This document shows, in pieces, positions 1,157 to 21,886 of a DNA stretch of 32,290 nucleotides. The DNA is from a bacterium (GTDB lineage: Bacteria > Patescibacteriota > Microgenomatia > UBA8517). Numbering within the stretch: the first letter of the stretch is position 1; the number at the start of each line of letters is the position of its first letter. The stretch covers positions 1 to 32,290 of the forward strand of contig JAKAJP010000030.1 of assembly GCA_021824915.1 (NCBI GenBank). The letters are read 5' to 3'. Below the pieces are notes generated by a model. That model was given only the letters and a program-made list of their open reading frames with translations, had not been told where the DNA came from and did not search any database. A program made the translations under genes and the position numbers.

Positions 1157-1801
1157 ATGCCAGAGTCAAATTCACCTCAACAAAATACCGGAAATGCTTT
1201 TGAGATAGTGACACCTTCAAAATCAAAGAAGGTCAATATGAAAAGTATCATCATCATTGCCGCAGTCTTTCTTTTTTTGGGAATCGCCGTTTTTCTTGGG
1301 GTGTATTTAGTCCAGCAGCAGCAGAACATTCAGGAGAAAGCTGCGGTTACAACGTGTCCCGCTGCGGAGCAATGTCCTAATTCAAAAAACCCCAATTTAC
1401 TCCAGAGTTGTCACCCTGGAGAGAGTGATGGCTCAACAAGTGATAGACTTTGTAATACTGCCGGTAGGGTGGAGACCTGCGGACCTGCAACGACTAAATA
1501 TTGTTGTCCTGCCCCGGGTGCAGCTTGGACGACCGATATGTCTGTTTGTAATTCGTTGTCAGCTACGGCCACTCCAACGGCCACACCCACACCGACAGCC
1601 ACCGCAACAGCAACTCCGACAATTGAGCCCTTAGTTACACAAGCTCCTACCACAGGGAGTCCGACCCCAACCTCTACTGTTCAAGCGGCTTCAACCGCGA
1701 GTCCTGTTCCAATTCCGGTCACGGGAGTTGAATGGCCAACGGTTTTAGGTATTGGAGTGGGGGCGGTAACAATAATAGGTTCAATTCTTCTGGCGCTCTA
1801 G
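1157..1801 (+). CDS. Hypothetical surface protein: N-terminal TM, Cys-rich region, Thr/Pro-rich stalk, IPVTG motif plus C-terminal TM
   Basis: 214-aa ORF; TM near N-terminus (IIIIAAVFLFLGIAVFLGVYLV), ATPTATPTPTATATATPT stalk, C-terminal PIPVTGVEWPTVLGIGVGAVTIIGSILLAL. Confidence 0.6.
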   Translation: MPESNSPQQNTGNAFEIVTPSKSKKVNMKSIIIIAAVFLFLGIAVFLGVYLVQQQQNIQEKAAVTTCPAAEQCPNSKNPNLLQSCHPGESDGSTSDRLCNTAGRVETCGPATTKYCCPAPGAAWTTDMSVCNSLSATATPTATPTPTATATATPTIEPLVTQAPTTGSPTPTSTVQAASTASPVPIPVTGVEWPTVLGIGVGAVTIIGSILLAL

Positions 1802-1858
1802 TGCAAATTTAGCATACCTTACTTGGCGCCAACCTCCCAACCTTTAGATCGTGAGTGT

Positions 1859-2176
1859 TTACAGGAGTTTTTTCAGGCTGAATTTTTTGACCACAATTCC
1901 GATGTGGTCAATTAGGGGAAAGTGGCTTTTTACTTCTTCCTGGAATTTTTCGGCCAAGCCTCCGCTGTATTTACCAAATCCGGATTTTTCGGATTGTTTA
2001 CAGAGTTTATCTTCCCATTCGTGAATAATTTTCAATATTGTTTCACCTTCCTGATTAAATTTTTCTTGGTATTTATCCTCATTTGTTGAATATTCAAAGT
2101 GGGCTTGTGTAAATCTGTCGAAAGCGTCTTTATTTTCCTCAACCATTCGGTTGTAATATTCCCGATACTTTGTCAT
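1859..2176 (-). CDS. Hypothetical protein (105 aa), overlaps the ABC permease by 4 nt
   Basis: ORF translationally coupled to the permease upstream on the minus strand. Confidence 0.5.
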   Translation of the reverse strand: MTKYREYYNRMVEENKDAFDRFTQAHFEYSTNEDKYQEKFNQEGETILKIIHEWEDKLCKQSEKSGFGKYSGGLAEKFQEEVKSHFPLIDHIGIVVKKFSLKKLL

Positions 2177-2919
2177 ATTTGTATTTTTGAGAAAAGATAA
2201 CTGCCGATGAGAAGAAATACGAATGTAATTACTGAAAGCACAAGCAGATCGAATCCTGTCCCAAATTGAGCAGCTCCTCCCAAAACTCCGCGCAGTCCGT
2301 CAATTCCATAAGTCATGGGGTCGATTTTTGTTGCAATTTCCATCGCTTTTGGTAGACCCTGGATGGGGTAGAGACTTCCTGATAAAAAGAAAATTGGCAT
2401 AACCAGAAAATTCATAATGAGTTGAAATCCCTGCATATCTTCCAGCATAGAAGCGATGGCCGTTCCCAGAGCTGTAAAAAGGAGGGCGATTATAAACATA
2501 AATAAGAGTGCCAGAGGAATGTGATAATAAGTTGTAAATCTGAAACCTACGAATGTGGAAAGAATTAAAACAACAATGCCCTGAAAAGTTGCAACCGTTG
2601 CGCCCCCTAAAGTCCGCCCCAACATAATTGAAAATCTTGAGACCGGAGCAACCATTGTTTCTTTTAAGAAACCGAATTGTCTGTCCCAAATGATTTCAAT
2701 TCCGGCAAAAATCGCAGTGAAGAGAATACTCATTGCAACAATTCCGGGAGCTAAAAATTGGATATAATTTCCTTGACCCGCTCTGGCAAAAACGCCGCCA
2801 AAGCCATAGCCGAAAGCGATTAAATAAAGAAGTGGCTGACCCAAAGATCCGATTATCCGGCTACGGGAGCGGAAGTATTTAACGACCTGTCTTTTCCAAA
2901 GTATGTAAATTTGTTCCAT
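2173..2919 (-). CDS. ABC-2 type transporter permease
   Basis: 248-aa multi-TM protein (GFLKETMVAPVSRFSIMLGRTLGGATVATFQG, ABC-2 permease pattern), adjacent to an ATPase gene. Confidence 0.85.
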   Translation of the reverse strand: MEQIYILWKRQVVKYFRSRSRIIGSLGQPLLYLIAFGYGFGGVFARAGQGNYIQFLAPGIVAMSILFTAIFAGIEIIWDRQFGFLKETMVAPVSRFSIMLGRTLGGATVATFQGIVVLILSTFVGFRFTTYYHIPLALLFMFIIALLFTALGTAIASMLEDMQGFQLIMNFLVMPIFFLSGSLYPIQGLPKAMEIATKIDPMTYGIDGLRGVLGGAAQFGTGFDLLVLSVITFVFLLIGSYLFSKIQI

Positions 2920-3720
2920 TTAATGCCGGCCTCCCCAAACATGTCTTCGTTGTCTAAGCGCATCAAGAGCTCCGGCTTCTTCGTTTCTGATCTCGTGGCC
3001 CGTCAAATGTAGAAAAGCTTCTTCGAGGGAAGCGGATTTTGTCTTTTTCTTAAGTGCATTGGGTGTTCCCTCGGCAACAATGTTTCCGTGGTCAATAATT
3101 ACAATTCTGTCCGCGTTTTTTTCTGCTTCATCCATATAGTGTGTTGTAAAAAATACCGTCATTCCCTCCTTTTTGTTTATGTCTTTTAAGTAAGTCCACA
3201 TATGATTTCTGGTTTGGGGGTCAAGGCCTATCGTCGGCTCGTCCAAAAAGAGAATTTTTGGATGGTGCAGAAGGCCACGGGCAATTTCAAGTCTTCTTTT
3301 CATTCCGCCGGAAAATGTTTTAACAAGAGACTTGCTTCTGTCGGATAAATCAACAAATTTTAATAGATCTTCAATTCTCTTTTTTCTGGTATTTACGGGG
3401 ATTGAATATAAAACGGCATGCAGTTCCATGTTTTCCATTGCCGTCAGATCATCATCCAGTGACGGATCCTGAAACACTATTCCGAAACCGCGTCTTACCG
3501 CGTCCTGATCTTGAGAAGGATCTGCCCCATTAACTAATATTTTTCCCGAAGTTGGAGCTAAAAGAGTTGTCAGCATTTTTATTGTTGTTGATTTTCCGGC
3601 GCCGTTCGGACCGAGAAAAGCAAAAATTTCTCCCTTTTCGACACCAAAAGAAATATCATTAACTGCAGTAAACCCATTAAATTTTTTGGTCAGACTTTTA
3701 ACCTTTATTATTTTAGCCAT
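2920..3720 (-). CDS. ABC transporter ATP-binding protein (DrrA/daunorubicin-resistance type)
   Basis: Walker A GPNGAGKST, signature FSGGMKRRLEIARGL, Walker B ILFLDEPTIGLD. Start chosen at MAKIIKVKSLTKKF (ATG at 3720), not the longer ORF to 3768. Confidence 0.92.
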   Translation of the reverse strand: MAKIIKVKSLTKKFNGFTAVNDISFGVEKGEIFAFLGPNGAGKSTTIKMLTTLLAPTSGKILVNGADPSQDQDAVRRGFGIVFQDPSLDDDLTAMENMELHAVLYSIPVNTRKKRIEDLLKFVDLSDRSKSLVKTFSGGMKRRLEIARGLLHHPKILFLDEPTIGLDPQTRNHMWTYLKDINKKEGMTVFFTTHYMDEAEKNADRIVIIDHGNIVAEGTPNALKKKTKSASLEEAFLHLTGHEIRNEEAGALDALRQRRHVWGGRH

Positions 3721-3780
3721 CTGATGATCATATATTATCGTTGTGCTGGAATTCAAGCAATAAATCACTGATAATTAATT

Positions 3781-5799
3781 ATGGCTACCACAGATAGTCT
3801 TCCTGAGGTTGGGGATAGAGTGGACATTAAGAACTTGCTCCCTGTTTCTAATCCCGAAAATCGACTTTATGGCACAGCTATGGAAATCTGTGATTATACA
3901 GGGATTAAGCTTTCTGAAATTCCAGGTATTCCTCTAGAGCACAGAGTCAGATCGTCAATGTTGGCTTTAGGAAATCAGGGAATAAGAATGATCGATGGTA
4001 AGCCCGTTTCATTTATTTACATAAGTACATCCGTTAAGGAAGATGATTCGTTTGGCAAGTCTGTATTGGTGGAGGAAACCTTTCATCATATTCAGACCGT
4101 TATGAACAGTGCTTTACTTAAGGAGCGAGCAGAAGTTGAGACAGATAGAAGTTTTCAGTCTGACTATTCACAAAGTAGCGCTCTTTATGAAAATCTCAAA
4201 CAGTCTTCTGGTAAAGCAATGATTGAGTTTGCTTCGAAGACTGGAATCGATTCCAGTCTGCACCCCCAAACTGAAGCCGAAAAAGAGTTGGTGTTAAAGA
4301 GAAGAATAGAAAGACTTTCGCCGGAACAGGCGGCAAGACTTTATACCGCTCTTGACCAGATGGGCGTCGCCAGCGATGGTGAGAATGAACACAGACGATT
4401 TGTTGATAACGCAAAAGAGTATAGAAAAATCGAAAAGCGAATAGACGAGCTCAGAGAGGAGGAAAAAAATTTAGAATCATCGGATGACAGCATCAAATTA
4501 AGGGATATAAGAGAAAGAATACGGAGCTTACGTGAAGGTTTTGACGGCCTTGGAACCTTATCGAGTTTGATATCGTACCAACTTGAGCAGCGCATTGCGA
4601 GAGTGCCTGACGGACCAGAAAGAAGTTCGATTTTGGAAAAGGCCCTTGCAAAATCGTTCGTTGATCTGGATACACTTGGTGCGCAATCAATGTTGTATGA
4701 GGAGAGAATTAAAAACCTCACACCAGATCAAATCCGTAAAGCACTAGAAGATTATTTGGCGAGTAGACCGGATCTTGATTCACTTATTTTCTTGAATAGA
4801 GATTTGACCATAGAAGACAATGAAGAGCATTTGAAGGTTTTAAGGATATTGGAGAGTGGTGATCCGGAGTCTATGGAATATGAAAATTTGAGGCAAAGCT
4901 TCCAGAAAAGAATTGAGAATCAATTGCAGGTAGCCGGTGTTGACGACTTGGCTAAGTTTTACACCGAAAGTTTAATTTATTTAATGCGGGGTGTTGAAAA
5001 GTCCTTGGCCGCGAATGCTCTTGTTGAGGAAAATTTAATATTTTTGTTTGACGATTTACCCATGGACGATGAGACAAGAAAGAGGTTTGTTGGAAATTCT
5101 GAATTTATGCGCCAGCTTAGAGATTTTGTGTTGAAATCCGTCAAAAGCGGAGAACTTTCTCCGTTTGGTTCGGAAGGACTGGATGTTGGGCTATTCTCAT
5201 CCAGTAGAAAGGAAGCTGGGACCGTTCTCAAAAAGTCATTAAAACGACCGACGGATGATATTAATGCCACTGCCTTTTTGGCGGATATGAAATCGGCAAC
5301 TGAATATACAAGATCGAACATTAGTGGTGATCAATTTGATTTTATAGAGGCTGGTTCTGAGAGGAATATTGAAGTTAAATTAAAAGAGACGTTTCCGGAT
5401 AGAAGTATTGCTGATTTGCCTTCTGGAACAGAATTTAGAGATGCCCAACTGGCGGCGTACCAAGAGTCTGTTGAAATTGTGAGAAAATCTAGGAAAGAAA
5501 GTGAGCATAAACACTCGACAGACATCCTTATCGAACCAATAGCAAAAGTTATAAGTCAAAAGTTATCCGGGGGTACACGCAATGATATTGTCTTTCCCGA
5601 AACCATGATGGGTGGCTACACGATAATTCTTAGAACTCAAGAACTTAAAGAGTGGGTCGACAAGCTTTGGACTTATGTTGATAAAGTGCATGAATATAAG
5701 AACAGTGGTGGTGACGCCTCTTTGAGGGAATTTATACATGCCACCAGTTTGGATCAGCAGAGAGCGGTAGTCGAAAAATTTATAAAGGTGATAAAATAG
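3781..5799 (+). CDS. Hypothetical 672-aa protein, originally directly upstream of ychF
   Basis: Long complete ORF ending 4 nt before the stranded ychF start codon at 5804; contains EETFHH segment; family not recognised. Confidence 0.65.
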   Translation: MATTDSLPEVGDRVDIKNLLPVSNPENRLYGTAMEICDYTGIKLSEIPGIPLEHRVRSSMLALGNQGIRMIDGKPVSFIYISTSVKEDDSFGKSVLVEETFHHIQTVMNSALLKERAEVETDRSFQSDYSQSSALYENLKQSSGKAMIEFASKTGIDSSLHPQTEAEKELVLKRRIERLSPEQAARLYTALDQMGVASDGENEHRRFVDNAKEYRKIEKRIDELREEEKNLESSDDSIKLRDIRERIRSLREGFDGLGTLSSLISYQLEQRIARVPDGPERSSILEKALAKSFVDLDTLGAQSMLYEERIKNLTPDQIRKALEDYLASRPDLDSLIFLNRDLTIEDNEEHLKVLRILESGDPESMEYENLRQSFQKRIENQLQVAGVDDLAKFYTESLIYLMRGVEKSLAANALVEENLIFLFDDLPMDDETRKRFVGNSEFMRQLRDFVLKSVKSGELSPFGSEGLDVGLFSSSRKEAGTVLKKSLKRPTDDINATAFLADMKSATEYTRSNISGDQFDFIEAGSERNIEVKLKETFPDRSIADLPSGTEFRDAQLAAYQESVEIVRKSRKESEHKHSTDILIEPIAKVISQKLSGGTRNDIVFPETMMGGYTIILRTQELKEWVDKLWTYVDKVHEYKNSGGDASLREFIHATSLDQQRAVVEKFIKVIK

Positions 5800-5803
5800 C
5801 CTC

Positions 5804-5823
5804 ATGAGCCTTTCTGTTGGAAT
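5804..5823 (+). pseudogene. ychF: Stranded 5' end of native ychF (MSLSVGI), separated from its body by the mobile element
   Basis: ATGAGCCTTTCTGTTGGAAT encodes MSLSVG(I); joined to 23465 onward (TGTAGGGCTACCGAATGTGGGGAAG) it gives MSLSVGIVGLPNVGK, the conserved YchF N-terminus. Confidence 0.85.
5819..5823. repeat. Left attachment junction core GGAAT
   Basis: TGTTGGAATAGT (5815-5826) aligns with TGTCGGAATTGT (23456-23467). Confidence 0.75.
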
Positions 5824-5952
5824 AGTCAGAGCGGGAATCAACTTTTTCCATTCGAGCTTGTGATACCGTTACCCCCACCAAGAATAGCTAGACTAATAGT
5901 TCAACGGGACAAGTGGGGAAGAATTGTACATTCAGAAGCTCCATTGTTTTGA
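5824..5952 (+). pseudogene. Severed 3' end of the serine recombinase gene (42 codons + stop)
   Basis: In frame with recombinase codon 526 (AAT, 23462-23464) when element ends are joined: SQSGNQLFPFELVIPLPPPRIARLIVQRDKWGRIVHSEAPLF followed by TGA at 5950-5952. Confidence 0.75.
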
Positions 5953-6009
5953 GTTAATTTAGGGAAAATATTCTTTTTCTATTCCAGACCGCCTCTTGCG
6001 GTGTTAAAA

Positions 6010-6037
6010 TTGCAATATAAAATTATTAAAATATAGA
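6010..6037 (+). promoter_or_regulatory. Putative sigma70-type promoter for the metabolic cassette (TTGCAA-N16-TATAGA)
   Basis: TTGCAA at 6010-6015, 16-bp AT-rich spacer, TATAGA at 6032-6037, about 60 bp before the ATG at 6099. Confidence 0.35.
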
Positions 6038-6098
6038 CAATGGTTTTATGAGTAAAAATATGAACTGGTTAAATTAATAGCCTTTTTGATCTAAGAAA

Positions 6099-7031
6099 AT
6101 GGAACAAAGGAATTTAGAAGTTGGTGGTAGAGAGTGGGCGTATATAAAAGATAGAGTGCTTGGGAGAGGGAAAATTTACCGTAGTTTAGATGGCACTCAA
6201 TATATGCATACTGGGAGTGTTGCGGAGGTCGGCAATGAAGCGAATTTTATTGAGCAGCTTCATGGTCTTAATTTTCCGGTGCCAAGGATACTTAGTAAGG
6301 GAGAAATCGGAGGAATTAACTACTACATTGAGGAATCAGTTGGGGACATGAGTTTCGGTGAAAAATTTCGCCATGAATACACCTTGCATCAAAAAGTGAC
6401 TGGAGAGACGTTTGAAGGATTTTGCAATATAGCGTGTCAATTCCTGGAAGCGCAATTGAATAATCCAACAGACAGAAGGAGTGAAATAAGGGAAGGGGTA
6501 CATCTATCTAACGTTTTGCAAGAAAATCCAGATCTTAGAGACAAAATTTTCCCATGCATTAGTATGATAGAAACAAATTTGCAACAAATTCCACTCGTAT
6601 TGACCCATGGAGATTTTTCCCCAAGAAATACTTTTACTAAAGGAGTTATTGATTTTGAGCATAGGTTCATTGCTCCCGTCGGTTATGATGTTCTTACGGG
6701 TATAACAATTCAGCGCTTTTGGGATTTTAAGGATAGTGATGGAGAGACTCAGCTTGATTTTGACGTCGAGTCAGGTCAAGTTGCGGATTATTTTAGAAAA
6801 TTAGACAATATCGCTGAGCATTATAAAATAGGGCAATTATCGAGGTTTGCGGATGATTTCGTTGTACTTAAGGCTATTTGGTCTCTTGCTTACGAAAAGC
6901 AATTTGCTAGTCAAACAGGAAACAATTTAAAAAGAAACTTTCGTAAGGCTGTTTTGGTTTATTGTATGGATCAATATATGAATGGCAGACCAGTAGACAC
7001 TAGTAGTTTTAAAAAGTTTGGACAACAATAG
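6099..7031 (+). CDS. APH/choline-kinase-family phosphotransferase
   Basis: LVLTHGDFSPRNTFTKGVIDFEH matches the HGDxxxxN...DFE catalytic pattern of the aminoglycoside phosphotransferase-like fold. Confidence 0.75.
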   Translation: MEQRNLEVGGREWAYIKDRVLGRGKIYRSLDGTQYMHTGSVAEVGNEANFIEQLHGLNFPVPRILSKGEIGGINYYIEESVGDMSFGEKFRHEYTLHQKVTGETFEGFCNIACQFLEAQLNNPTDRRSEIREGVHLSNVLQENPDLRDKIFPCISMIETNLQQIPLVLTHGDFSPRNTFTKGVIDFEHRFIAPVGYDVLTGITIQRFWDFKDSDGETQLDFDVESGQVADYFRKLDNIAEHYKIGQLSRFADDFVVLKAIWSLAYEKQFASQTGNNLKRNFRKAVLVYCMDQYMNGRPVDTSSFKKFGQQ

Positions 7032-7057
7032 AGTAGCGTTGATATAGAATTGAAGTT

Positions 7058-8680
7058 ATGACTAAATTACCAAAGACGATTGAGAATTTATTTTATAATC
7101 CGGAGACGGATTCTGTAGACTCATTACTAAAAGATATTAAGGAGACTCATTTGCATATTTTAGAAAACACGGACTTGTCGAAAGGAACTCTTTCCTCAAA
7201 ACCCGAAGATTATGTGTATGTAATAAAGGATTTTAAAATTCCAAATAACGGAATAGGCCAAGGTTCGTTTGACTCAATTATACCCGCGCTTTTTCGTGGT
7301 GTATCCAGGTGGCACTCTCCTCGAACAATGTATAATGTCGCTCCGCCGCCAATATTACCAACAGTTGTTGGTAAAGTTTTCACTTCACTGTATAACCCAA
7401 ATTTAGCCTTAGACACCGCAGCAGGTAAAAGTCTTTTAACCGAACAGGAAGTAATAAAAGCGATTGCAGATTATATCGGTTGGGATCGAGAAAATGCTGG
7501 TGGAATTTTTACCTGGGGTGGAAAGGCAACAATAATGTATGGTATTAAATTAGGACTAAAAAATTGTTCACCAAATTCTTCTACGCAGGGTGCAAAAGAA
7601 GACGTTGTTGTTCTCTCGACGGTAGCTGGTCATCCATCTCATATACAGGATGCTAATTGGCTGGGTATCGGGACGGACAATGTGATTAGGTTGGAAGTTG
7701 ATAGGGATGGTAAAACGGATGTGAATCAAATGGAACAAGTAATTAAAAAAGTGACCAGAGAGGGTAAAAAAATTGCAGCCATTATTGTTTCAGGAGGAAC
7801 AACCAATAGTATGGTGGTGGATCCAATCGAAAAGGTTGTCGAGTTGAGAAATAGACTTGTAAATGAACTTTCCCTGAAGTATATACCTCATATTCATGTT
7901 GACGCCGTGGTTGCCTTCCCATGGATATTTTTTAAAGACTATAATTTTGGATTAAACAATCTTGATATTGAGGCAGAGGCACTGGAAAGAATATTGAAAA
8001 TAATAAAGGATCTGAAATGTATATATCTGGCTGATTCATTTGGCATAGACTTTCATAAAATGGGTTTTTGTCCTTATATATCAAGTGCCTTTCTCGTTAA
8101 GGACAAAACTCTATTAAGTGGAAAGGAAGACCTTCAAAATTGGCCATTTTTATATTCGATGGAGAATTCTAGAGCTGGTGACGGTCCAAACTCCGCTTTT
8201 ATTGCTTTAAGCGCTTTGGGTGTAAAGGGTTTTCAGGTTTTAATTGCACATTTGACTGAGATGGCGGTGCATTTACAGAATGAGATAGAAAAAACAGGAA
8301 ATTTTGAGATAATAAATAAAACAGGACTCGGAACTTCGGTTATGTTTATTCCACGTATTCCTAAAGGTTTAACTTTCCCAAATTTAGAAATAGAATCGAA
8401 GGTCAGAAATTTTTATACAGCAAGTTTTATCGAAGAAATGTCAAAATTAGGGAATCCTTATTATATTGATAAAATACCCGGCAACTCCACTGGATCCAGC
8501 CCTTTTCCGCTAACATCATTAAAAGCTTACATAATGTCGCCATTTTCAAGCAAAGAAAATAATCTTTCTTTTGTGGAATTTATTGTTGAATTAAAGCGAA
8601 AAATAGATATGAAATTCGATTTTCATAATACAAATATTAAGTCTTCGGATGTTGAATTTTTCCATCCCCTAAAAGGATAA
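7058..8680 (+). CDS. PLP-dependent group II decarboxylase-like enzyme
   Basis: GGIFTWGGKATIMYGIKLGL, HVDAVVAFPW (PLP-binding Asp region) and DSFGIDFHKMGFCPYISSAFLV (HK Schiff-base lysine context) resemble group II amino-acid decarboxylases. Confidence 0.75.
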   Translation: MTKLPKTIENLFYNPETDSVDSLLKDIKETHLHILENTDLSKGTLSSKPEDYVYVIKDFKIPNNGIGQGSFDSIIPALFRGVSRWHSPRTMYNVAPPPILPTVVGKVFTSLYNPNLALDTAAGKSLLTEQEVIKAIADYIGWDRENAGGIFTWGGKATIMYGIKLGLKNCSPNSSTQGAKEDVVVLSTVAGHPSHIQDANWLGIGTDNVIRLEVDRDGKTDVNQMEQVIKKVTREGKKIAAIIVSGGTTNSMVVDPIEKVVELRNRLVNELSLKYIPHIHVDAVVAFPWIFFKDYNFGLNNLDIEAEALERILKIIKDLKCIYLADSFGIDFHKMGFCPYISSAFLVKDKTLLSGKEDLQNWPFLYSMENSRAGDGPNSAFIALSALGVKGFQVLIAHLTEMAVHLQNEIEKTGNFEIINKTGLGTSVMFIPRIPKGLTFPNLEIESKVRNFYTASFIEEMSKLGNPYYIDKIPGNSTGSSPFPLTSLKAYIMSPFSSKENNLSFVEFIVELKRKIDMKFDFHNTNIKSSDVEFFHPLKG

Positions 8681-8727
8681 GGTTTGTTTTGCAAGCCTAT
8701 TGTGATAAAATCTCAGCCATAGAACCC

Positions 8728-9963
8728 ATGATAAAACAAAAAACAAATAGCCAGCCTACACAAGTCTTAAGCAGTTTAGAAGAAGCGAGGGTTAATGTAC
8801 CTTTAGAGAACCCCAATTTGCCAATGCCGCTCAAGTTTGAAGTATCAAGGCCTGAAATTATAAAAAAGTCACTAGCGATTAAAGATCTTACTTTACCAAC
8901 TGAAAGTGGGCAGGAAAGAAGCGTTGTTGGAAAGGTTTTTGATCAGGTTGTAGAAAAATTAAAAGAGCATAATTTTTCTGATATTCATATAGTGAGAGGA
9001 AATCCCATTGTTGAAGTAAGAGATAATTTTGATAAACTCCTCTTTTCGCCAGGAAATCCAGGAAGGTCATCAACTTACACTAGGTACACCGATGAGAATC
9101 ATGTATTAAGAACCCACACGTCAGCACTAATACCATCAACTTTTGAGAAATTGGATAAAAAAGATTTAGACCGCTCGACTTTTGTACTCCCAGGCTTAGT
9201 TTATAGAAGAGATGTGATTGATCCTAAACACTTGGACGTGTTCCACCAAATTGATGTATGGACACTTCAGAAAAACAAAAAATACGGAAAGACAAATAGA
9301 AAAGATTTGTTAGAGCTTGTTAAAGCCGTGTTCGAAGCAGCCTGTCCGGGTGCTGAAATGAAAATTAATGAGGTAAAGCACCCCTATACTTTAGATGGTA
9401 TAGAGGTTTATGCGAAAATTGATAACAAAGAGATAGAAGTCCTCGAAGCTGGGTTGGCGCACCCCACAGTGTTAAGTAATTCTGGCATTAATCCTGAAGA
9501 ATACTCGGGTTTGGCTTTGGGTATGGGTGTTGAACGCCTAATCATGGCACGAAAAGACCTACCGGATATCAGGTTAATTCGATCGACAGACCCCCGTGTA
9601 ATTAAACAAATGACGAATATGGAAAAGTATAGGAGTGTCTCTAATCAGCAAGCCATGTCGAGAGATATGTCCTATTGTGTTGAGAAAGACGAAACAGAGG
9701 AAGATATCTGCGAAGCTATTAGGGTTGCGTTTGGGGAGAATAGCGATTTGTTGGAAGAGGTTAAGATTTTAGAGAGAACTCCATACGAAAAATTGACTCC
9801 AATTGCTAGAAAAAGACTCGGTGCATCAAAAGATCAAGTTAACGTTTTGGTAAGAATTGTTTTAAGACATCCCGACAGAAGCTTGACCAAAAGGGAGGCT
9901 GCGGATTTGTACTCCTCTGTTTATCCAAAATTACACCAAGGGTCAACTTTGGGATATGAATAA
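8728..9963 (+). CDS. Stand-alone class II aminoacyl-tRNA synthetase-like protein (PheRS alpha core plus FDX-ACB-like C-terminal domain)
   Basis: LRTHTSALIP, PGLVYRRDVIDPKHLDVFHQIDVW, GLALGMGVERLIMARKDLPDIRLI are PheRS class II motifs 2/3; C-terminal MSRDMSYCVEKDETEEDICEAIR... is FDX-ACB-like. Start taken at ATG 8728 rather than the TTG at 8689. Confidence 0.8.
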   Translation: MIKQKTNSQPTQVLSSLEEARVNVPLENPNLPMPLKFEVSRPEIIKKSLAIKDLTLPTESGQERSVVGKVFDQVVEKLKEHNFSDIHIVRGNPIVEVRDNFDKLLFSPGNPGRSSTYTRYTDENHVLRTHTSALIPSTFEKLDKKDLDRSTFVLPGLVYRRDVIDPKHLDVFHQIDVWTLQKNKKYGKTNRKDLLELVKAVFEAACPGAEMKINEVKHPYTLDGIEVYAKIDNKEIEVLEAGLAHPTVLSNSGINPEEYSGLALGMGVERLIMARKDLPDIRLIRSTDPRVIKQMTNMEKYRSVSNQQAMSRDMSYCVEKDETEEDICEAIRVAFGENSDLLEEVKILERTPYEKLTPIARKRLGASKDQVNVLVRIVLRHPDRSLTKREAADLYSSVYPKLHQGSTLGYE

Positions 9964-10615
9964 TAATCGGCGTAAGCGTCTAATCACCTTAAGAGAAGCG
10001 TATGAAAAGGAACCTTACAGTGTTAAGCTTAGTGGCCTCAACCTTAGGATAGAAAAAGGTGTTTTTCCTCCTGATGTATCATTTGCTACTCTAAAACTTG
10101 GGAAAATTCTGGGTAACTATCGTCCCGAATCAGCAATAGACATAGGAAGCGGGTCTGGATATCTTGCATTTGTGCTGAAACGAAATGGTGTTCAAAGAGT
10201 ATTTGCAAGTGACATAAATCCGGCCGCAATTAATTGCATAAAAGAAAATGTACGGTTAAATCCCGGCTGTAATCTTAACGGAATTTATTTGAGTGACCTT
10301 TTTAGTAATCTTAAAGAGAACTTAAAGTTTGATCTTATTATCTTCAATCATTTTTACCGTCCCGAAGGAACGGGTATTTTTGGTCCAGTAAACGATGCGG
10401 GAAAAGAGATAATTGAACGGTTTTTGACACAATCAAAACAAAGATTAACTCAAAACGGTGTCATTATTATGAACTTTGTTGAGATGTCTGATCCTGAGAA
10501 TAGCCCGGCAGCAATTGCGAAGCAGATGGGTTATAAGGTGAAAGTATTATTCCAAGAGAGTAACTATCAAAATATGGGTAATTTCTTTGTTTACGAATTT
10601 AAACTGCCAAGTTAA
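9956..10615 (+). CDS. Class I SAM-dependent methyltransferase (HemK/RsmC-like)
   Basis: AIDIGSGSGYLAFVLKRNG (motif I), VFASDINPAAINCIKENVRLN, motif IV position reads LIIFNHFYRPEG. Confidence 0.75.
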   Translation: MNNNRRKRLITLREAYEKEPYSVKLSGLNLRIEKGVFPPDVSFATLKLGKILGNYRPESAIDIGSGSGYLAFVLKRNGVQRVFASDINPAAINCIKENVRLNPGCNLNGIYLSDLFSNLKENLKFDLIIFNHFYRPEGTGIFGPVNDAGKEIIERFLTQSKQRLTQNGVIIMNFVEMSDPENSPAAIAKQMGYKVKVLFQESNYQNMGNFFVYEFKLPS

Positions 10616-10616
10616 T

Positions 10617-12068
10617 TTATCGGCTAATATACTCATCTAGCTTGATAATTGAAGGCAATTTAATCTTGTCTTCTTTGTGAGTTTTATTATAGAAATCCTC
10701 TGCAATCTTTTCGTACATCATTGAGTATATTCTGATGGTCAGTTTCTGGTCATCAATGGTCGAGAGTCTGTCTAATTCTTCCTTGATAACTCTTTCACCA
10801 GCACAAGCTTTAATAAAACTTTTAAACAGATCTTTCGATGTCAAAGTTCCGGTCTCATAGGCGTCAGTAAAGTACCATCTATTAGATTTTTCACCTAATA
10901 AGGGGTGTAACATTTGCCTTAAATCGATGTTGTGCCCTAAAGCCACTTCATCATTTTTTATCAATTGCCACTGTTGTAATGCACCTTGATGTATATCAAA
11001 GTACACAGACGACATTCTTCCTCCGTACTTATCGTGTGCGTATTCTGTAACTTCGGGATTATATTTTGTCAAACGAGGCGCAAATGTAGAATAATTGACA
11101 ATAAAAGTAATTAATCCAATCTGGTTGTTGTTTTTGTCTCTTAATTTTAGGTAAAAATGAAAATCAAGTTCGGTGTTTAATGCTTGTTTGGGGATATTAG
11201 CCACATCATCATTATTCTTATTTTCAACAAGCTTTCTCAAGGATTTATAGCTACCAGCCTTAATATATTCTTCTACTCTCAAGATATAGGGCATAGAAAT
11301 TTCGATAGTGTCAATATTTCCCCTTGCCATTTTAAGATACCAAGCTACCACATCGATATAGTGATAGCTTGTGTGAGAGAGTGTGCCAACCCCGTCAATG
11401 TGTCCGTGCGCGCCACCCTTAAGATATTCGCTTGGATATTTATGAATTCCCCCGTTGATTATAACGTTCATATATCTAATTCCTTCACCAGTCTTTAAAT
11501 ATATTTTATTTAACCCATCTGCTACTTTGATAAAAGGGATTAGCGCTCTTCTTCGAAGGGGAGAGCAAAACATGTAGTTTTTATTTTCCTTTTTGATTTT
11601 GTCATATAATAAATTTAATTTTTCATATTTTTTCTGAATTGACCGAGCTTGATTTATATCTAGAGAGCTATTCATATTGGTAACTAAAGGTTTATCACAA
11701 AGTAAATTTATTTTATTTTTAAGTGCCCATTCGCAGTAAAAATAGTGATGAACAGGGTCTGTCGCAACAATTACCGCATTAATTAGCTTTTTTATATTAA
11801 GTTGATCTAATTCGTATTGTAGTTGGTCGGGTGATTTTCCAGACGTATCAATCCATTGTGGGTTATCTAGTTCTAAAATCTTTTTGAGGTTGTCACGTAT
11901 TTCCTGTTTTTCTGTATCCCTTGGATTAACCGGATCACAGATCGCCACGACTTTTACATTCATGCCCTCTGATTTCAGACTAAGAATCGAGGAATAATGA
12001 TTCTTTTCAGTCCACAAGCCACTACCACCGGCAACAAGAATGTTTATTGTTTTAGAATTCATTCCCAT
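10617..12068 (-). CDS. Gfo/Idh/MocA-family oxidoreductase
   Basis: INILVAGGSGLW... Rossmann start, VVAICDP, AVIVATDPVHHYFYCEWALKNKINLLCDKPLV (family EKP/DKP motif). Confidence 0.75.
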   Translation of the reverse strand: MGMNSKTINILVAGGSGLWTEKNHYSSILSLKSEGMNVKVVAICDPVNPRDTEKQEIRDNLKKILELDNPQWIDTSGKSPDQLQYELDQLNIKKLINAVIVATDPVHHYFYCEWALKNKINLLCDKPLVTNMNSSLDINQARSIQKKYEKLNLLYDKIKKENKNYMFCSPLRRRALIPFIKVADGLNKIYLKTGEGIRYMNVIINGGIHKYPSEYLKGGAHGHIDGVGTLSHTSYHYIDVVAWYLKMARGNIDTIEISMPYILRVEEYIKAGSYKSLRKLVENKNNDDVANIPKQALNTELDFHFYLKLRDKNNNQIGLITFIVNYSTFAPRLTKYNPEVTEYAHDKYGGRMSSVYFDIHQGALQQWQLIKNDEVALGHNIDLRQMLHPLLGEKSNRWYFTDAYETGTLTSKDLFKSFIKACAGERVIKEELDRLSTIDDQKLTIRIYSMMYEKIAEDFYNKTHKEDKIKLPSIIKLDEYISR

Positions 12069-12134
12069 ACGTCACATTTGAGTATTAGTATATCAAGATT
12101 TAATAGCAAACTATAATTTGGAAGGAACCCTTAT

Positions 12135-13571
12135 TTAGAAAAGTTCGTTTTGGTCAGCTTTGACTTCAGCCCTTTTGAAAGGGTTTATTTTATCCGTTGG
12201 TAGTTTTAGCCCCTTGCCTTCAAACCACTCCTTTACTGAAAGTAGTTGTATTTTGGGGAAAGATGTTGATTCAGAGTATCTATATTCTCCGGCTAAAGCA
12301 GCTTCTCTTTTCATCTCGCTTGTAGGTTCGTGTAATGTTATTAAAACTCCCATAGGCGCACTATCCCTTTCAATATCTCCCTTGAGCGTTGAAACTTCAT
12401 TCCGGTGGTTTGTGTTTCCGCCCTTAACTTGAACAATAATCTTTTTGAGCTTGGGATTTCTTAAATCTTCTCTATCATAAAAAAGGATAATTCCATCAAT
12501 ACCCCTGTCTGCGCCTTTCTTTGTCTCACCACTTGGGGGGCTGGCCCCAACAAGAGTTATTGCCCAATCTTGAAATGAAAACTTATCTTTTTCAGCCAAA
12601 CTTACTGCTGACTCAAAATCCATTGGTATTCCATCGAGATGTATTTGTATTCCGGGGTAATGAGCATTCATTCTTTGGTTTATAACATTTACTGCTTGCA
12701 TACTAATGTCTATCCCAGCCCAGTTTCTGTTTAATCTTTCGGCGACTGCAACCGTAGTTCCGCACCCACAAAACGGGTCTAAAATCCAATCACCCTCTTT
12801 AGATGAAATTTTGATTATTCTTTCGAGGAGTTTTTCGGGTTTTTGTGTAGGATAATCCAATCTTTCTTTATCCATAGGGTTTAAAGCTGGTATTTCCCAG
12901 ACATCCATAGGAATTTTGTAAATATCATTTGCACCAATCCTTGCCCCTTTGGGATTTTGAGCTCTTTCCATAGCTTTTTCTGTTCTTTTATCAGGGTCGG
13001 CCATTGGGTCAAAATGATAATCATCAGTTTTTGTGTAGAAGAGAATAATGTCGTGTTTTTTTGAATAATGCTGTTTGCTAGCTCCTCCAGTTTGATAATG
13101 CCATACAATTTCATTCCTGAAATTTTCCTTTCCAAAAATCACATCCATAATGATTTTTAGATAATGGCTTGCCGTCGGATCGCAATGCAAATATATTGAC
13201 CCGGTTGTTTTCAAAACGCGATGAAGAGGCATAAGTCTTGCAGTCATATTGACCAAATAGGCCATCATTTGGTTTTGACCGATAAATTCTGAAAGGCTGT
13301 TTATAAGTATGGCTATTTGTGGTTTTGGATTGTTTTTTAATTCGTTAAATATCCTTACTGTATCTTCCGTCCATTCCCAAGTATCCTCGAAGGCGTGAAT
13401 TTGGGCTGAGGAATCAATCTGACCTTCCTTGAAAAGTACGTTGTAGTTACGGTTTGAATTGAATGGGGGATCAAGGTATATTAAATCAAAGAAATTTTCA
13501 GGGATTTTCTCTTTCAATACCTCTAAGTTATCTCCAAAAAAGAGAGTTCTGTTTTGAATATCCATATTCAA
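12135..13571 (-). CDS. DNA N6-adenine/N4-cytosine methyltransferase fused to an Mrr-like PD-(D/E)XK domain
   Basis: FFDLIYLDPPFNSNRNYN (motif IV) then ILDPFCGCGTTVAVAERLNRNWAGIDIS (motif I), i.e. IV-before-I order; C-terminal GADRGIDGIILF...KKIIVQVKGG matches an Mrr_cat-like D...QVK pattern. Confidence 0.85.
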   Translation of the reverse strand: MNMDIQNRTLFFGDNLEVLKEKIPENFFDLIYLDPPFNSNRNYNVLFKEGQIDSSAQIHAFEDTWEWTEDTVRIFNELKNNPKPQIAILINSLSEFIGQNQMMAYLVNMTARLMPLHRVLKTTGSIYLHCDPTASHYLKIIMDVIFGKENFRNEIVWHYQTGGASKQHYSKKHDIILFYTKTDDYHFDPMADPDKRTEKAMERAQNPKGARIGANDIYKIPMDVWEIPALNPMDKERLDYPTQKPEKLLERIIKISSKEGDWILDPFCGCGTTVAVAERLNRNWAGIDISMQAVNVINQRMNAHYPGIQIHLDGIPMDFESAVSLAEKDKFSFQDWAITLVGASPPSGETKKGADRGIDGIILFYDREDLRNPKLKKIIVQVKGGNTNHRNEVSTLKGDIERDSAPMGVLITLHEPTSEMKREAALAGEYRYSESTSFPKIQLLSVKEWFEGKGLKLPTDKINPFKRAEVKADQNELF

Positions 13572-13660
13572 TTGCTACAAACAGTCCCAATATAGCAGAA
13601 CTATAAAAATGCTACAAGGAGAAGCTGGTCTATCAGTCCCATTTAGCCTAGCCTTGGGGT
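13572..13660. promoter_or_regulatory. Divergent intergenic region with paired direct repeats and an inverted repeat (candidate C-protein operator)
   Basis: TGCTACAA at 13573-13580 and 13610-13617; CAGTCCCA at 13582-13589 and 13634-13641; inverted TAGCA (13593-13597) / TGCTA (13610-13614). Confidence 0.45.
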
Positions 13661-13882
13661 ATGAAAGTTGTTTCAGAAGCTCATAAAAGGTTTGGCCAAA
13701 GATTAAAAATTTTAAGAAAAGAGCAGGGAATGACGCAGGAAGATTTAGCGTTTAAAGTGGGAGTTGATAGAAGTTATATGGGTTTTATCGAGAGGGGAGA
13801 GAAGAATGTTACTCTTAAAAGACTAGTTGATATAGCTAAAGCTTTTAGGGTGTCTCTTTCGGAGCTCTTCAAATCAATTTAA
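13661..13882 (+). CDS. XRE-family HTH regulator (R-M controller/C-protein-like)
   Basis: 73-aa HTH_3: RFGQRLKILRKEQGMTQEDLAFKVGVDRSYMGFIERGEKNVTLKRLVDIAKAFRVSLSELF; divergent from the methyltransferase. Confidence 0.85.
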   Translation: MKVVSEAHKRFGQRLKILRKEQGMTQEDLAFKVGVDRSYMGFIERGEKNVTLKRLVDIAKAFRVSLSELFKSI

Positions 13883-13980
13883 TAAACTTGCAATTTTAGT
13901 GGTAATATACAGGTATAAAACACCCTTGATAAATGGGCTTTTTTTGTAGCTAGTCTTTTACTAGAAAAATTACAATTAAT

Positions 13981-15813
13981 ATGACAACGGAAAGAGTGGA
14001 TGAGTATTATCGCTGGGTTTTAGATAGGCTGAAAGAGCTTCTGGATACTTCTCCCTCAAATAAACCAATTCGCTATGAGTTAAGTCATGTAGCTGCGGCT
14101 GGCGTGCCCAACAATGAGACTGAGGAAAACATTGTTAGAAAGTTGGCAGAACTAGGCATCGTCAAGATAGTAGGGGAACATCCAAGAACTTGGGAATATA
14201 CACATAACGGTTACTTTGAGCTTTTGATTCTTCAACCCCAATTTGACGAACTATGTAGAAAGTTTGGTGTTATTGAGGAAGCTAATAACAAAATTGACGT
14301 AAAGCCTAAAGCTGAAGAACCTAAATTTTTAGAAATCGAAGATTTGTCCGAGGATACACTTCTGCCTGTTTGGTGGGTAATAAAAAGAGTAAAAAACGAA
14401 TATTTAGCCACTATGGAGGGTGAGGAGGTGTTACTTAAATTTGTTCCTGGGGAAGTCATAATTGCTGGAAACCAAAGGACTATCCCAGATTTGGAGGATC
14501 AGAAACTCGCAGTTAGATTGCTGCAAAAAATGGGAGCAATAAAGATTAAAAGTGACTATTTTACCCCCAAAGGGGATAATCGTTTTTATGTTCCTAAAGG
14601 TCAGGCGCCAAATGGGTATTATCTTGATATTTTACAACCTAGGTTTGATGAAATTTATAAACAAAGTGAGAAGGGGAATACGTCACCCAGACAACAAGAA
14701 GAACAAATTGATTTAATACAAGAAGACGAGCCAGTTGAAGTGATTTCGGCCGACCTCAAGGCCTTATTCTCACGAGTTGTCGCTGAGCAGGATGAAATTA
14801 ACTTTTATTTCAAAATTGCAGCATACGGAAAGTATTTAATAGATCACCCCCAGTTGAATCCAATTTTAAGTAATCTTTATGGGCAATCGAAAAAGGATGC
14901 CTTAGGCTTTTTGAAAATATGGGGAGAGTTCTTTGAATTGTGGAAACAGTTGGGTCAAGAATTAGTTGACCTGGCAGAAAAAAATGGTATCAAAGGAAAT
15001 CCTGATATACTTAATCAGGATCTAGCGAGACTAAAACAAAGGTTGGCGGAGCCAGATTTATCGTTTTATTCAGGAGATCTTTACAGCTACTACAGGCCAT
15101 ATTGTGATCTGATAGGCACTTTTGTACGAGAACAAAGGTCGGATTTAGTTGTTCCAAAGTATCTCGATAAAAATTTAGTTAGCTTAACCATTGATCCAAA
15201 ATATAGAGCAGCAACAGAAAGTTGGGATTTGTATGTTAAACAGCGTGTTAATGAACCATGGTGGGCGCACTATCAGATAATGAGATTGACTTCCGGCGTC
15301 CTCGATTTGCCAGACAAAAAGCTATATTTCAAGGATGATAATTTTGTAGACACGCTTTATAAAACAGGGTTTAATGAGCTTGGTAGAGGAATAAAACTCA
15401 GCTTTCTTAATAAGAATAAATTTACGGAATGGATAAAAATACTGCATGATTATATTATCCCGCGACTTGCCAAACTAAATAAAGACAAGGGTGGTATTTT
15501 TTCAGGTTTTAAAGCAATGATCCTGGGTGGTGACAAAATGACAAAACGTGAGCGAGATAAAGAGTTTAATCGACTAAAGAAAGTTTGTGACCTGAGTACA
15601 AAACAAGAAAGTTTGCTTAGGATTTTATTTGATTTCAGGCCACACGATACCAAAAACCTTGAGTCAGATGTGCCGACTAAAGCACTTTCCCATCTTAAGG
15701 ATTCACTAAATGGGAATATTAAAAGGGAAGCATATACGATTGATTCTAAGCTAGGAGGACCACTTGATAAATCTTTTTATACCTTGAGAAAGATCATCGA
15801 TGAAAACAAATAA
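13981..15813 (+). CDS. Hypothetical 610-aa protein with an internally duplicated N-terminal domain
   Basis: Repeated segment NGYFELLILQPQFDELCRKF and NGYYLDILQPRFDEIYKQ; no known family recognised. Confidence 0.6.
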   Translation: MTTERVDEYYRWVLDRLKELLDTSPSNKPIRYELSHVAAAGVPNNETEENIVRKLAELGIVKIVGEHPRTWEYTHNGYFELLILQPQFDELCRKFGVIEEANNKIDVKPKAEEPKFLEIEDLSEDTLLPVWWVIKRVKNEYLATMEGEEVLLKFVPGEVIIAGNQRTIPDLEDQKLAVRLLQKMGAIKIKSDYFTPKGDNRFYVPKGQAPNGYYLDILQPRFDEIYKQSEKGNTSPRQQEEQIDLIQEDEPVEVISADLKALFSRVVAEQDEINFYFKIAAYGKYLIDHPQLNPILSNLYGQSKKDALGFLKIWGEFFELWKQLGQELVDLAEKNGIKGNPDILNQDLARLKQRLAEPDLSFYSGDLYSYYRPYCDLIGTFVREQRSDLVVPKYLDKNLVSLTIDPKYRAATESWDLYVKQRVNEPWWAHYQIMRLTSGVLDLPDKKLYFKDDNFVDTLYKTGFNELGRGIKLSFLNKNKFTEWIKILHDYIIPRLAKLNKDKGGIFSGFKAMILGGDKMTKRERDKEFNRLKKVCDLSTKQESLLRILFDFRPHDTKNLESDVPTKALSHLKDSLNGNIKREAYTIDSKLGGPLDKSFYTLRKIIDENK

Positions 15814-15960
15814 CAACAGTATTTCAAGGCTAATTAATTCACCGATACCTCATGTTTATTTTTGAATAGCAGATATTTAGCTTCAAAAATTTCAATTATT
15901 ACTTTCGACTGGTGAGCATAGACAGGTCAAAAATAAAGCTGGTTACGTTTTTGAAAATTT

Positions 15961-16233
15961 ATGACTATGACTCAAAATCTAGATATCAATGACTATTACT
16001 CGACTTCAGATCTCGCGTTAGCAACCGCGATTTCTCTTTATTATCCACTTGAGGTGGTTGACCGTAGCAATCCCCATAAGGCTCAATTTCTTTTCAAAAG
16101 AGATGACAACCTGGATAAATTTATAGAATCGTATTGGAGAGGAGATCTTAAAGTAAGTCCTTCTTCTTATTTTAATCAGCTAAAAATCATAAAAGCCCGG
16201 CTTTACGAAATGGAAAGGAGCCGCAATGGCTAA
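15961..16233 (+). CDS. Small protein resembling the DUF5659 family
   Basis: DYYSTSDLALATAISLYYPLEVVDRSNPHKAQFLFKRDDNLDKFIESYWRGDLKVSP.YFNQLKIIKARL pattern. Confidence 0.65.
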   Translation: MTMTQNLDINDYYSTSDLALATAISLYYPLEVVDRSNPHKAQFLFKRDDNLDKFIESYWRGDLKVSPSSYFNQLKIIKARLYEMERSRNG

Positions 16234-16414
16234 AATTAAAGTTACTTTTGAACAGGTGGAATTGAGTAAGGAGGAGTTAAAAAATCGCATTGATTCCATT
16301 TTTGATATTTTGTTTGAGGAAATTGTGAAGTCGTCAGTACGGCCAAATAAGAATATTTCTATAGATCGCGTGGATGGCGGGAGGGAGGTGAATGAACAAA
16401 TATGCCTAAGTTAA
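16226..16414 (+). CDS. Hypothetical small protein (62 aa)
   Basis: Overlaps both neighbours by 8 and 13 nt, suggesting translational coupling. Confidence 0.45.
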   Translation: MAKIKVTFEQVELSKEELKNRIDSIFDILFEEIVKSSVRPNKNISIDRVDGGREVNEQICLS

Positions 16415-16815
16415 TTTTCAAAAAAAGAGTAGTTCCGGATGCGGGGAAAATAATGACCCATTTGGTCTCAGTTGGCGAAGTGGAGAACCAGTTTTACAAC
16501 CCAAAAGAGCAAAGTGAGGATAAAAAGACGCAGTTGGAATGGATTTTTGAGTACACGGACAAGCCGGGAATGCAAATACGGCTTTGGTCTACCAAAAGTC
16601 TATCAACTTACAAGGGTAAGAAATCCAAAGCTCTAACTATTACTGAATCCTTGCTGGATAAAGAACTGACTGATGAAGAAAAAGAAAGTTTTGGAGATAC
16701 CGATCAGTTGGTTGGACGAAAGTGTTATCTAACTGTTAAGCACGAGAAGAAAGATGACGGTCAGATTTACGCAAAAGTAGTTGATTTTGAAAGCGAATCA
16801 GGAATTCCCTTTTAA
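16402..16815 (+). CDS. Putative ssDNA-binding (SSB-like) protein of the element
   Basis: 137-aa beta-rich ORF ending ...FESESGIPF, an acidic tail with terminal IPF like the host SSB tail (ADEDIPF at 25745); directly upstream of the primase. Confidence 0.45.
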   Translation: MPKLIFKKRVVPDAGKIMTHLVSVGEVENQFYNPKEQSEDKKTQLEWIFEYTDKPGMQIRLWSTKSLSTYKGKKSKALTITESLLDKELTDEEKESFGDTDQLVGRKCYLTVKHEKKDDGQIYAKVVDFESESGIPF

Positions 16816-16865
16816 CTTTCATTCCGGGCGTAACTTCAAATTGCGCCTGGAGACGAGAGCTGAAT

Positions 16866-19202: not shown

Positions 19203-19507
19203 TTACAGAAACAATAAAAGAAACACTTGAGAAATATATTCGGCTTTGCTCTTGGTTCCTGATTAAAGACGGAGATAAAGACGTTGCTTCGAATCAATTT
19301 GAGACAGTTTTAAAGGAAATTGGGAATTTGGAAGACAAGCTGATTGGAGAAGGTGTCTCCGGGAAAACTATTGAGACGATTGTTGAGATGACAAGAAAAA
19401 ACACTTTAGAGAAACCAATAAGTGAGTTAAGCGATTCTCAATTACTCAAGGTTTGTAAATTGATATTTGGTAAGGAAGTTGAATTTGAGGGGGGTGCCAC
19501 CCCATAA
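19199..19507 (+). CDS. Hypothetical protein (102 aa)
   Basis: Overlaps the primase stop (ATGA-type junction), same operon orientation. Confidence 0.5.
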   Translation: MITETIKETLEKYIRLCSWFLIKDGDKDVASNQFETVLKEIGNLEDKLIGEGVSGKTIETIVEMTRKNTLEKPISELSDSQLLKVCKLIFGKEVEFEGGATP

Positions 19508-19518
19508 GCGTAACTTAT

Positions 19519-19908
19519 ATGGAAGAAAAACCACAATGCAGTTTTATAAAAGAAAATGGGGAGAGATGTAATGCTATACCTATGAAAGATAGTGGCTATT
19601 GCTTTAGCCACAATCCTGATGTGGAAGTTGAGCGCCATATGGCTTTGGTTAAGGGTGGTTTGGCCAGTAAGAAAGTAGAGTTAAACCTTGAACCCTTGAG
19701 CATAAAAGACCCTAAAGAAGTGGCCACCTTGCTTGAAAGCACAATTAACGGTGTAAGAAGTGGTGAGATTCCACCCAATATTGCAAACACGATTGGTTAC
19801 CTCGCAGGGCACGTTCTGAAGGCCCTGGAATCATCGAACTTAGACCAGAGAGTGGAAATGGTAGAGAGCATTCTTTTGGAACGTAAGCGAAGCATAAAGA
19901 AGCACTAA
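19519..19908 (+). CDS. Small Cys/His zinc-finger-like protein
   Basis: CSFIKENGERCNAIPMKDSGYCFSHNP gives C-X9-C-X10-C-X3-H. Confidence 0.6.
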   Translation: MEEKPQCSFIKENGERCNAIPMKDSGYCFSHNPDVEVERHMALVKGGLASKKVELNLEPLSIKDPKEVATLLESTINGVRSGEIPPNIANTIGYLAGHVLKALESSNLDQRVEMVESILLERKRSIKKH

Positions 19909-19909
19909 A

Positions 19910-21652: not shown

Positions 21653-21691
21653 AATATTGCAAAGTATTACAAAGTAATCTAATATGAATCT

Positions 21692-21883
21692 ATGGAAGAA
21701 TTTTACACAACAAGACAAATTGGAAAGATGCTTCATGTTAAAGCCATTACCATAAGGCGTTGGATATCTAAAGGCGATTTACCCGCACTTTTCTTTGAGA
21801 AGGAATATAGAGTAATAAAATCGGATTTTGATAAATTTATTCAAAGTAAAAAAGTTCAAATAAAGAAAGGAAAGGGTAAATAA
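21692..21883 (+). CDS. Excisionase-family (MerR-like/HTH_17) DNA-binding protein, candidate recombination directionality factor
   Basis: YTTRQIGKMLHVKAITIRRWISKGDLPALFFEKEYRVIKSDFDKFI is the excisionase-type wHTH; 3 nt before the recombinase start. Confidence 0.8.
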   Translation: MEEFYTTRQIGKMLHVKAITIRRWISKGDLPALFFEKEYRVIKSDFDKFIQSKKVQIKKGKGK

Positions 21884-21886
21884 AAA

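Follow-up and report, generated by a model that had tools for sequence, protein, structure and literature searches.

SrmL, a probable single-chain phenylalanyl-tRNA synthetase in the cargo of an integrated patescibacterial element

Do five metabolic genes that lie side by side in a mobile element of a Patescibacterium form a pathway, and what would a gene resembling a tRNA synthetase be doing among them? We analyzed contig JAKAJP010000030.1 of assembly GCA_021824915.1 at its full length of 32,290 nucleotides (the window), which is contig 2 of a 752-kb, 97% complete Patescibacteria genome. A serine-recombinase element of about 17.6 kb (about 5,820 to 23,460) is inserted there in ychF, and its left end consists of genes for an APH-fold kinase, a group II pyridoxal phosphate (PLP)-dependent decarboxylase, a ligase similar to phenylalanyl-tRNA synthetase (PheRS), a methyltransferase, and a Gfo/Idh/MocA oxidoreductase. 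A preliminary description of this DNA had seen in them a compact, possibly undescribed biosynthetic or tRNA-linked amino acid modification pathway. Our analysis favors accessory cargo of the element over a recurring five-gene pathway, and the ligase, SrmL, is most likely, with moderate confidence, a single-chain PheRS carried on mobile DNA.

8689 to 9963, forward strand: SrmL, PheRS-like ligase with a class II core and a ferredoxin-fold anticodon-binding domain (424 aa from TTG; alternative start, ATG at 8728)

Against the NCBIfam model NF051887, "PheS-related mystery ligase SrmL" (curated cutoff, 300 bits), the protein scored 389.5 bits over profile positions 8 to 349 of 349. It thus belongs to the same family with nearly the full profile covered, although it has some 40 to 50 extra N-terminal residues, and other copies are seen solitary or among tRNA genes, whereas this one stands within a four-gene operon. 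The class II core was recognized by tRNA-synt_2d (PF01409, 2.8e-37), and class II motifs 2 and 3 are kept across the family (VYRRD..D..H...HQ and GLALGMGVER). Scores against the established PheRS models fell below their cutoffs, at 136.9 versus 258.35 bits for TIGR00469 (the mitochondrial PheRS equivalog) and 105 versus 237 bits for TIGR00468 (PheS). An AlphaFold model of SrmL was built from seven sequences (mean predicted local distance difference test score, 76.5), and a fold search with it returned human mitochondrial PheRS as the best match over the whole length (378 to 403 columns; E value, 1.9e-24; template modeling score up to 0.67); every bacterial PheS chain ranked below it. In the structural and active-site comparison that had been proposed, the predicted fold thus matches mitochondrial PheRS, motifs 2 and 3 are kept, and the amino acid pocket differs from that of bacterial PheRS (His231/Tyr233).

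With mitochondrial PheRS, SrmL shares the one-chain combination of class II core and ferredoxin-fold anticodon-binding domain; it differs in sequence (21 to 23% identity), in its pocket residues (His/Tyr for Phe/Phe), and in being found on bacterial mobile elements and phages. The catalytic core and motifs 2 and 3 are also common to bacterial PheS, but SrmL has no pheT partner and has its own anticodon-binding domain. In a phylogenetic tree, SrmL forms one clade (support, 100/99), distinct both from bacterial PheS and from another single-chain PheRS, which is found in Patescibacteria. In the literature, the monomeric form of PheRS is a peculiarity of mitochondria, and the prokaryotic enzyme is a heterotetramer in every known species (PMC3275996, 2010). 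Literature searches for SrmL or "mystery ligase" returned nothing relevant, nor did anything on point emerge for a PheRS that is monomeric, or additional to the usual one, in bacteria, phages, or biosynthetic clusters. The host retains canonical pheS and pheT elsewhere in its genome, so SrmL is an extra copy there.

The context in which SrmL occurs on phages points the same way as its fold. It is present on six large phage records (181 to 635 kb), five of which carry 49 to 71 tRNA genes; all six copies fall in the SrmL clade, and the four tested against NF051887 (L033, L044, L045, and L048) scored 423 to 443 bits. SrmL is the sole full-length PheRS core in each record, and when pheT was sought in the six, the only signal was SrmL's own C-terminal domain. 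tRNA-Phe(GAA) is encoded by all five of the tRNA-rich phages. Among 17 tRNA genes in L045, the two for tRNA-Phe stand immediately on either side of SrmL, an arrangement with a chance probability of 1 in 136, and in L048, tRNA-Phe is the second nearest tRNA gene to it. Other synthetases keep similar company in L044, a 508-kb phage contig, where lysyl-tRNA synthetase (LysRS) adjoins three tRNA-Lys genes and seryl-tRNA synthetase lies among tRNA-Ser genes. Together with a 211-aa protein resembling histidyl-tRNA synthetase, these genes make up a compact synthetase cluster with cognate tRNAs at 1238 to 7974.

Because of the fold match, the phage tRNA-Phe context without pheT, and the separate clade, we read SrmL as a single-chain PheRS. 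Its class II core would activate phenylalanine with ATP, its C-terminal ferredoxin-fold domain would recognize tRNA-Phe, and it would charge this tRNA without a beta subunit, like mitochondrial PheRS. Independence from a beta subunit is suggested by the genomes of the six phage records (this host has pheT elsewhere), and that the enzyme is active and uses phenylalanine is predicted from the same comparisons. In the operon, SrmL would most likely serve as a second, host-independent PheRS. The tRNA-linked half of the pathway proposal thus survives for one gene and in a plainer sense; a mobile single-chain PheRS accounts for the protein better than an amino acid-modifying enzyme does.

Several observations weigh against this assignment. 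The anticodon-binding domain model FDX-ACB (PF03147) matched SrmL at 5.1e-6 and 27.3 bits, below its gathering score of 31.1. Phe258 and Phe260 of Thermus PheRS correspond to invariant His231 and Tyr233, the equivalents of Gln183 and Glu220 are also changed, and the substrate could possibly be another aromatic amino acid. The His231/Tyr233 change does not exclude phenylalanine, however, since human cytosolic PheRS has Asn/Tyr at those two positions and still accepts it (PMC3275996). The element carries no tRNA gene; in phages L046 and L033, SrmL lies far from the tRNA arrays and not beside tRNA-Phe; and phages L045 and L048 are related, so the adjacency to tRNA-Phe in the two is not independent. 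Lastly, the close relative L003 (69% identity), which has no methyltransferase downstream, is cut off by the contig end on its upstream side, where the kinase and decarboxylase would lie.

SrmL and related proteins also occur outside phages. On actinobacterial resistance plasmids, SrmL is annotated as a hypothetical protein: in Glutamicibacter (L034, 14977 to 16095), it stands beside cmx, and in Corynebacterium diphtheriae (L036, about 11207 to 12232), a possibly truncated copy has erm(X) on one side and a tet gene on the other. In another Patescibacteria contig (L057; G150 contig 51, 7838 to 16375), SrmL is grouped with class II proteins resembling LysRS and asparaginyl-tRNA synthetase, and the cluster further holds an S66/MccF-type peptidase, a carbamoyltransferase, a nitrilase, a methyltransferase, and an S-adenosylmethionine (SAM) decarboxylase; the group looks like an uncharacterized biosynthetic cluster. 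In about 30 of the 380 genomes sampled from Patescibacteria (L005 to L032), a single-chain PheRS of about 380 aa is the only PheRS, without canonical pheT; these proteins scored 208 to 260 bits against NF051887, and many are directly adjoined by an EMAP/B2-like tRNA-binding open reading frame (ORF) of about 135 aa (for example, L064 [G262], 768 to 1892 and 1900 to 2310).

SrmL is accompanied in the cargo by four other genes:

6099 to 7031, forward strand: APH-fold kinase (310 aa; PF01636, 2.9e-9)
7058 to 8680, forward strand: group II PLP-dependent decarboxylase (540 aa; PF00282, 2.5e-17)
9956 to 10615, forward strand: class I SAM methyltransferase (219 aa; Pfam MTS, 7.5e-13)
10617 to 12068, reverse strand (convergent): Gfo/Idh/MocA oxidoreductase (483 aa; PF01408, 7.5e-8)

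The cargo ORFs are real: chance would not produce frames of such length with such good family matches. Pfam and NCBIfam confirmed all five families, so the gene-family calls of the preliminary description were right, and its account of the layout is likewise accurate: the genes are present and intact, four co-directional and the oxidoreductase convergent. The kinase and decarboxylase are separated by 26 nt and the decarboxylase and SrmL by 8 (or 47) nt; SrmL and the methyltransferase overlap by 8 nt, and the oxidoreductase ends one base beyond the methyltransferase end. Neither promoters nor terminators were predicted in the cargo above chance level. The cargo was rejected as a defense system, PADLOC having found none in it apart from a weak methyltransferase-domain match.

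The arrangement does not recur. Of 380 genomes of the phylum, 1 (this one) yielded the decarboxylase and 2 yielded SrmL above the cutoff, as did 1 of 374 genomes of the class; the kinase turned up in 1 of 37 genomes of the family. The cargo is as unexpected in this lineage as had been supposed. The fetched flanks of SrmL (another Patescibacterium, the six phage records, and three plasmids) contained no other gene of the cargo, and scans of viral contigs for each of the four partners gave no relatives. The neighborhood search that had been suggested for the PLP enzyme and the PheRS-like gene placed the decarboxylase near no other SrmL. A conserved biosynthetic gene cluster should appear as a recurring set in other genomes, and no such set appeared in the collections sampled. 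The proposed pathway is not supported, because the gene set is not conserved elsewhere in these collections, so that the refuting outcome named in the preliminary description itself has largely come about.

Individually, the four partners look like catalytically intact small-molecule enzymes, and they may act either with SrmL or apart from it. The kinase keeps the catalytic motifs HGDxxxxN (HGDFSPRN) and IDFE and is about 30% identical over its full length to phosphotransferases of Streptomyces plasmids. On three of these plasmids (L067, 6162 to 9939; L068, 6196 to 9972; and L070, 6164 to 9945), a conserved set surrounds the APH-like kinase (30% identical to that of the window), in the order histidine phosphatase, uncharacterized 383-aa zinc-finger-like protein, APH-like kinase, and nucleotidyltransferase. 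The 383-aa neighbor was considered as an aminoacyl-tRNA synthetase-like protein and rejected, as no family or structure match supported this. In the decarboxylase, H192, D282, and H333-K334 are invariant, so that the PLP lysine, the Asp, and the stacking His are retained. It has the PLP lysine and ligands in common with group II PLP decarboxylases (tyrosine and 2,4-diaminobutyrate) and a HKMG-x-x-PY motif similar to that of Enterococcus-type tyrosine decarboxylase, but it belongs to a distinct, uncharacterized subfamily of about 540 aa, and all NCBIfam equivalogs were far below cutoff. Its nearest relatives often adjoin an aminotransferase (Melissococcus, Enterobacter, and Brevibacillus); in Polymorphobacter, a relative stands beside GadC. 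The best family models for the methyltransferase are HemK2-like, and the fold and SAM-binding motif are common to HemK2/MTQ2-type enzymes, but NHFY (IIFNHFYRPEG) replaces the catalytic NPPY; HemK-type methylation of glutamine is therefore unlikely. The oxidoreductase has full-length relatives on Streptomyces plasmids (31% identity over 97%, 2e-72), and relatives in Streptomyces stand in a set of methyltransferase, nucleotide-sugar dehydrogenase, phosphoenolpyruvate-utilizing enzyme, and glycosyltransferase.

Three readings of the role of SrmL in the operon remain: capture together with unrelated enzymes, protection from a PheRS inhibitor, and supply of charged tRNA or aminoacyl adenylate. The first, under which unrelated genes were gathered singly at the variable end of the element and owe their packing to reduced-genome compaction without functional meaning, is compatible with SrmL as a PheRS and agrees with the differing contexts in which relatives of each gene are found (the decarboxylase, kinase, and oxidoreductase sets described above). 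Four intact, co-directional genes with gaps this short and an overlap nevertheless suggest co-transcription and selection, and we regard a purely fortuitous collection as possible but doubtful.

Protection would make more of the operon. An aromatic amino acid would be decarboxylated and then phosphorylated and methylated, the product or an environmental analogue would hit PheRS, and SrmL would be the insensitive copy. Second aminoacyl-tRNA synthetase genes serve self-protection in mupirocin- or indolmycin-type systems, and the tight, co-directional packing of the cargo is in keeping with such a role. By association, so are the resistance-plasmid copies of SrmL, with cmx adjacent and erm(X) and tet genes close by, though these neighbors may be hitchhikers, and the L057 cluster with its S66/MccF-type peptidase, other enzymes, and two more class II synthetase-like genes. 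The best plasmid relatives of the kinase and the oxidoreductase are in Streptomyces, and the best PDB match of the methyltransferase, a weak one, is a gentamicin N-methyltransferase. Set against this, there is no conserved cluster, the cargo has neither a transporter nor a recognizable scaffold enzyme, and no PheRS-directed product is known; on balance we think protection unlikely. A more general form, in which SrmL is a mobile PheRS that keeps tRNA-Phe charged in phages, resistance plasmids, and antibiotic-making elements when the host PheRS is blocked, and this element holds both a PheRS-blocking pathway and its immunity enzyme, strikes us as quite improbable. Similarly improbable is the reading in which SrmL no longer charges tRNA in the ordinary way and instead activates another amino acid, or provides its neighbors with aminoacyl-tRNA or aminoacyl-AMP as a building block (the tRNA-linked modification of the preliminary description): the invariant His231/Tyr233 pocket with its other first-shell changes, the adjoining decarboxylase, kinase, and methyltransferase, and NCBI's treatment of NF051887 as a ligase of unknown role would suit it, but the tRNA-rich phages that encode tRNA-Phe(GAA) have no PheRS-type gene other than SrmL, which in one of them lies between tRNA-Phe genes; no enzyme that uses aminoacyl-tRNA was found in the cargo, and the partners are not conserved.

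That the cargo lies within the element, as had been claimed, is seen from the two parts of ychF, and the borders were derived from its severed start:

5804 to 5826, forward strand: left junction, where the native 5' end of the host's ychF (MSLSVGIV) is severed, ATGAGCCTTTCTGTTGGAATAGT, matching the ychF starts of relatives (e.g., L099, L088, and L091)
5816 to 5826: left half-site GTTGGAATAGT, pairing with GTCGGAATTGT at 23457 to 23467
21887 to 23503, forward strand: large serine recombinase of the element (PF00239/PF07508)
23457 to 23467, forward strand: right junction half-site GTCGGAATTGT, within ychF

The element splits ychF near codon 8 and provides a replacement start (5804 to 5826 and 23436 to 23467); the 3' end of the recombinase gene overlaps this start at 23436, and the remainder of ychF resumes at about 23457, behind the recombinase. 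Relatives carry uninterrupted ychF starts of the same form as the severed one. Because other serine recombinases overlap ychF likewise in at least four related genomes (G388, G399, G385, and G396), the 5' end of this gene is a recurrent integration site in the host's family. A direct search for 10- to 12-bp attachment repeats found none, and neither structured RNA nor tRNA genes were found in the window. A 672-aa ORF (3781 to 5799) falls outside the element. Within it, a fusion of a DNA methylase with an Mrr-like endonuclease domain (12135 to 13571, reverse strand) stands beside a small XRE-type regulator ORF (about 13661 to 13885), and the two are likely restriction-modification cargo. A 610-aa protein (13981 to 15813) has no family match in Pfam, NCBIfam, PHROGs, or PADLOC, and a 580-aa protein (19910 to 21652) has none in PHROGs and PADLOC, the two libraries concerned.

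Reading SrmL as a single-chain PheRS gives a named "mystery ligase" family a proposed function and suggests that phages, plasmids, and integrated elements carry PheRS in single-chain form. Should SrmL prove insensitive to PheRS inhibitors, this would be relevant to drugs directed against bacterial PheRS.

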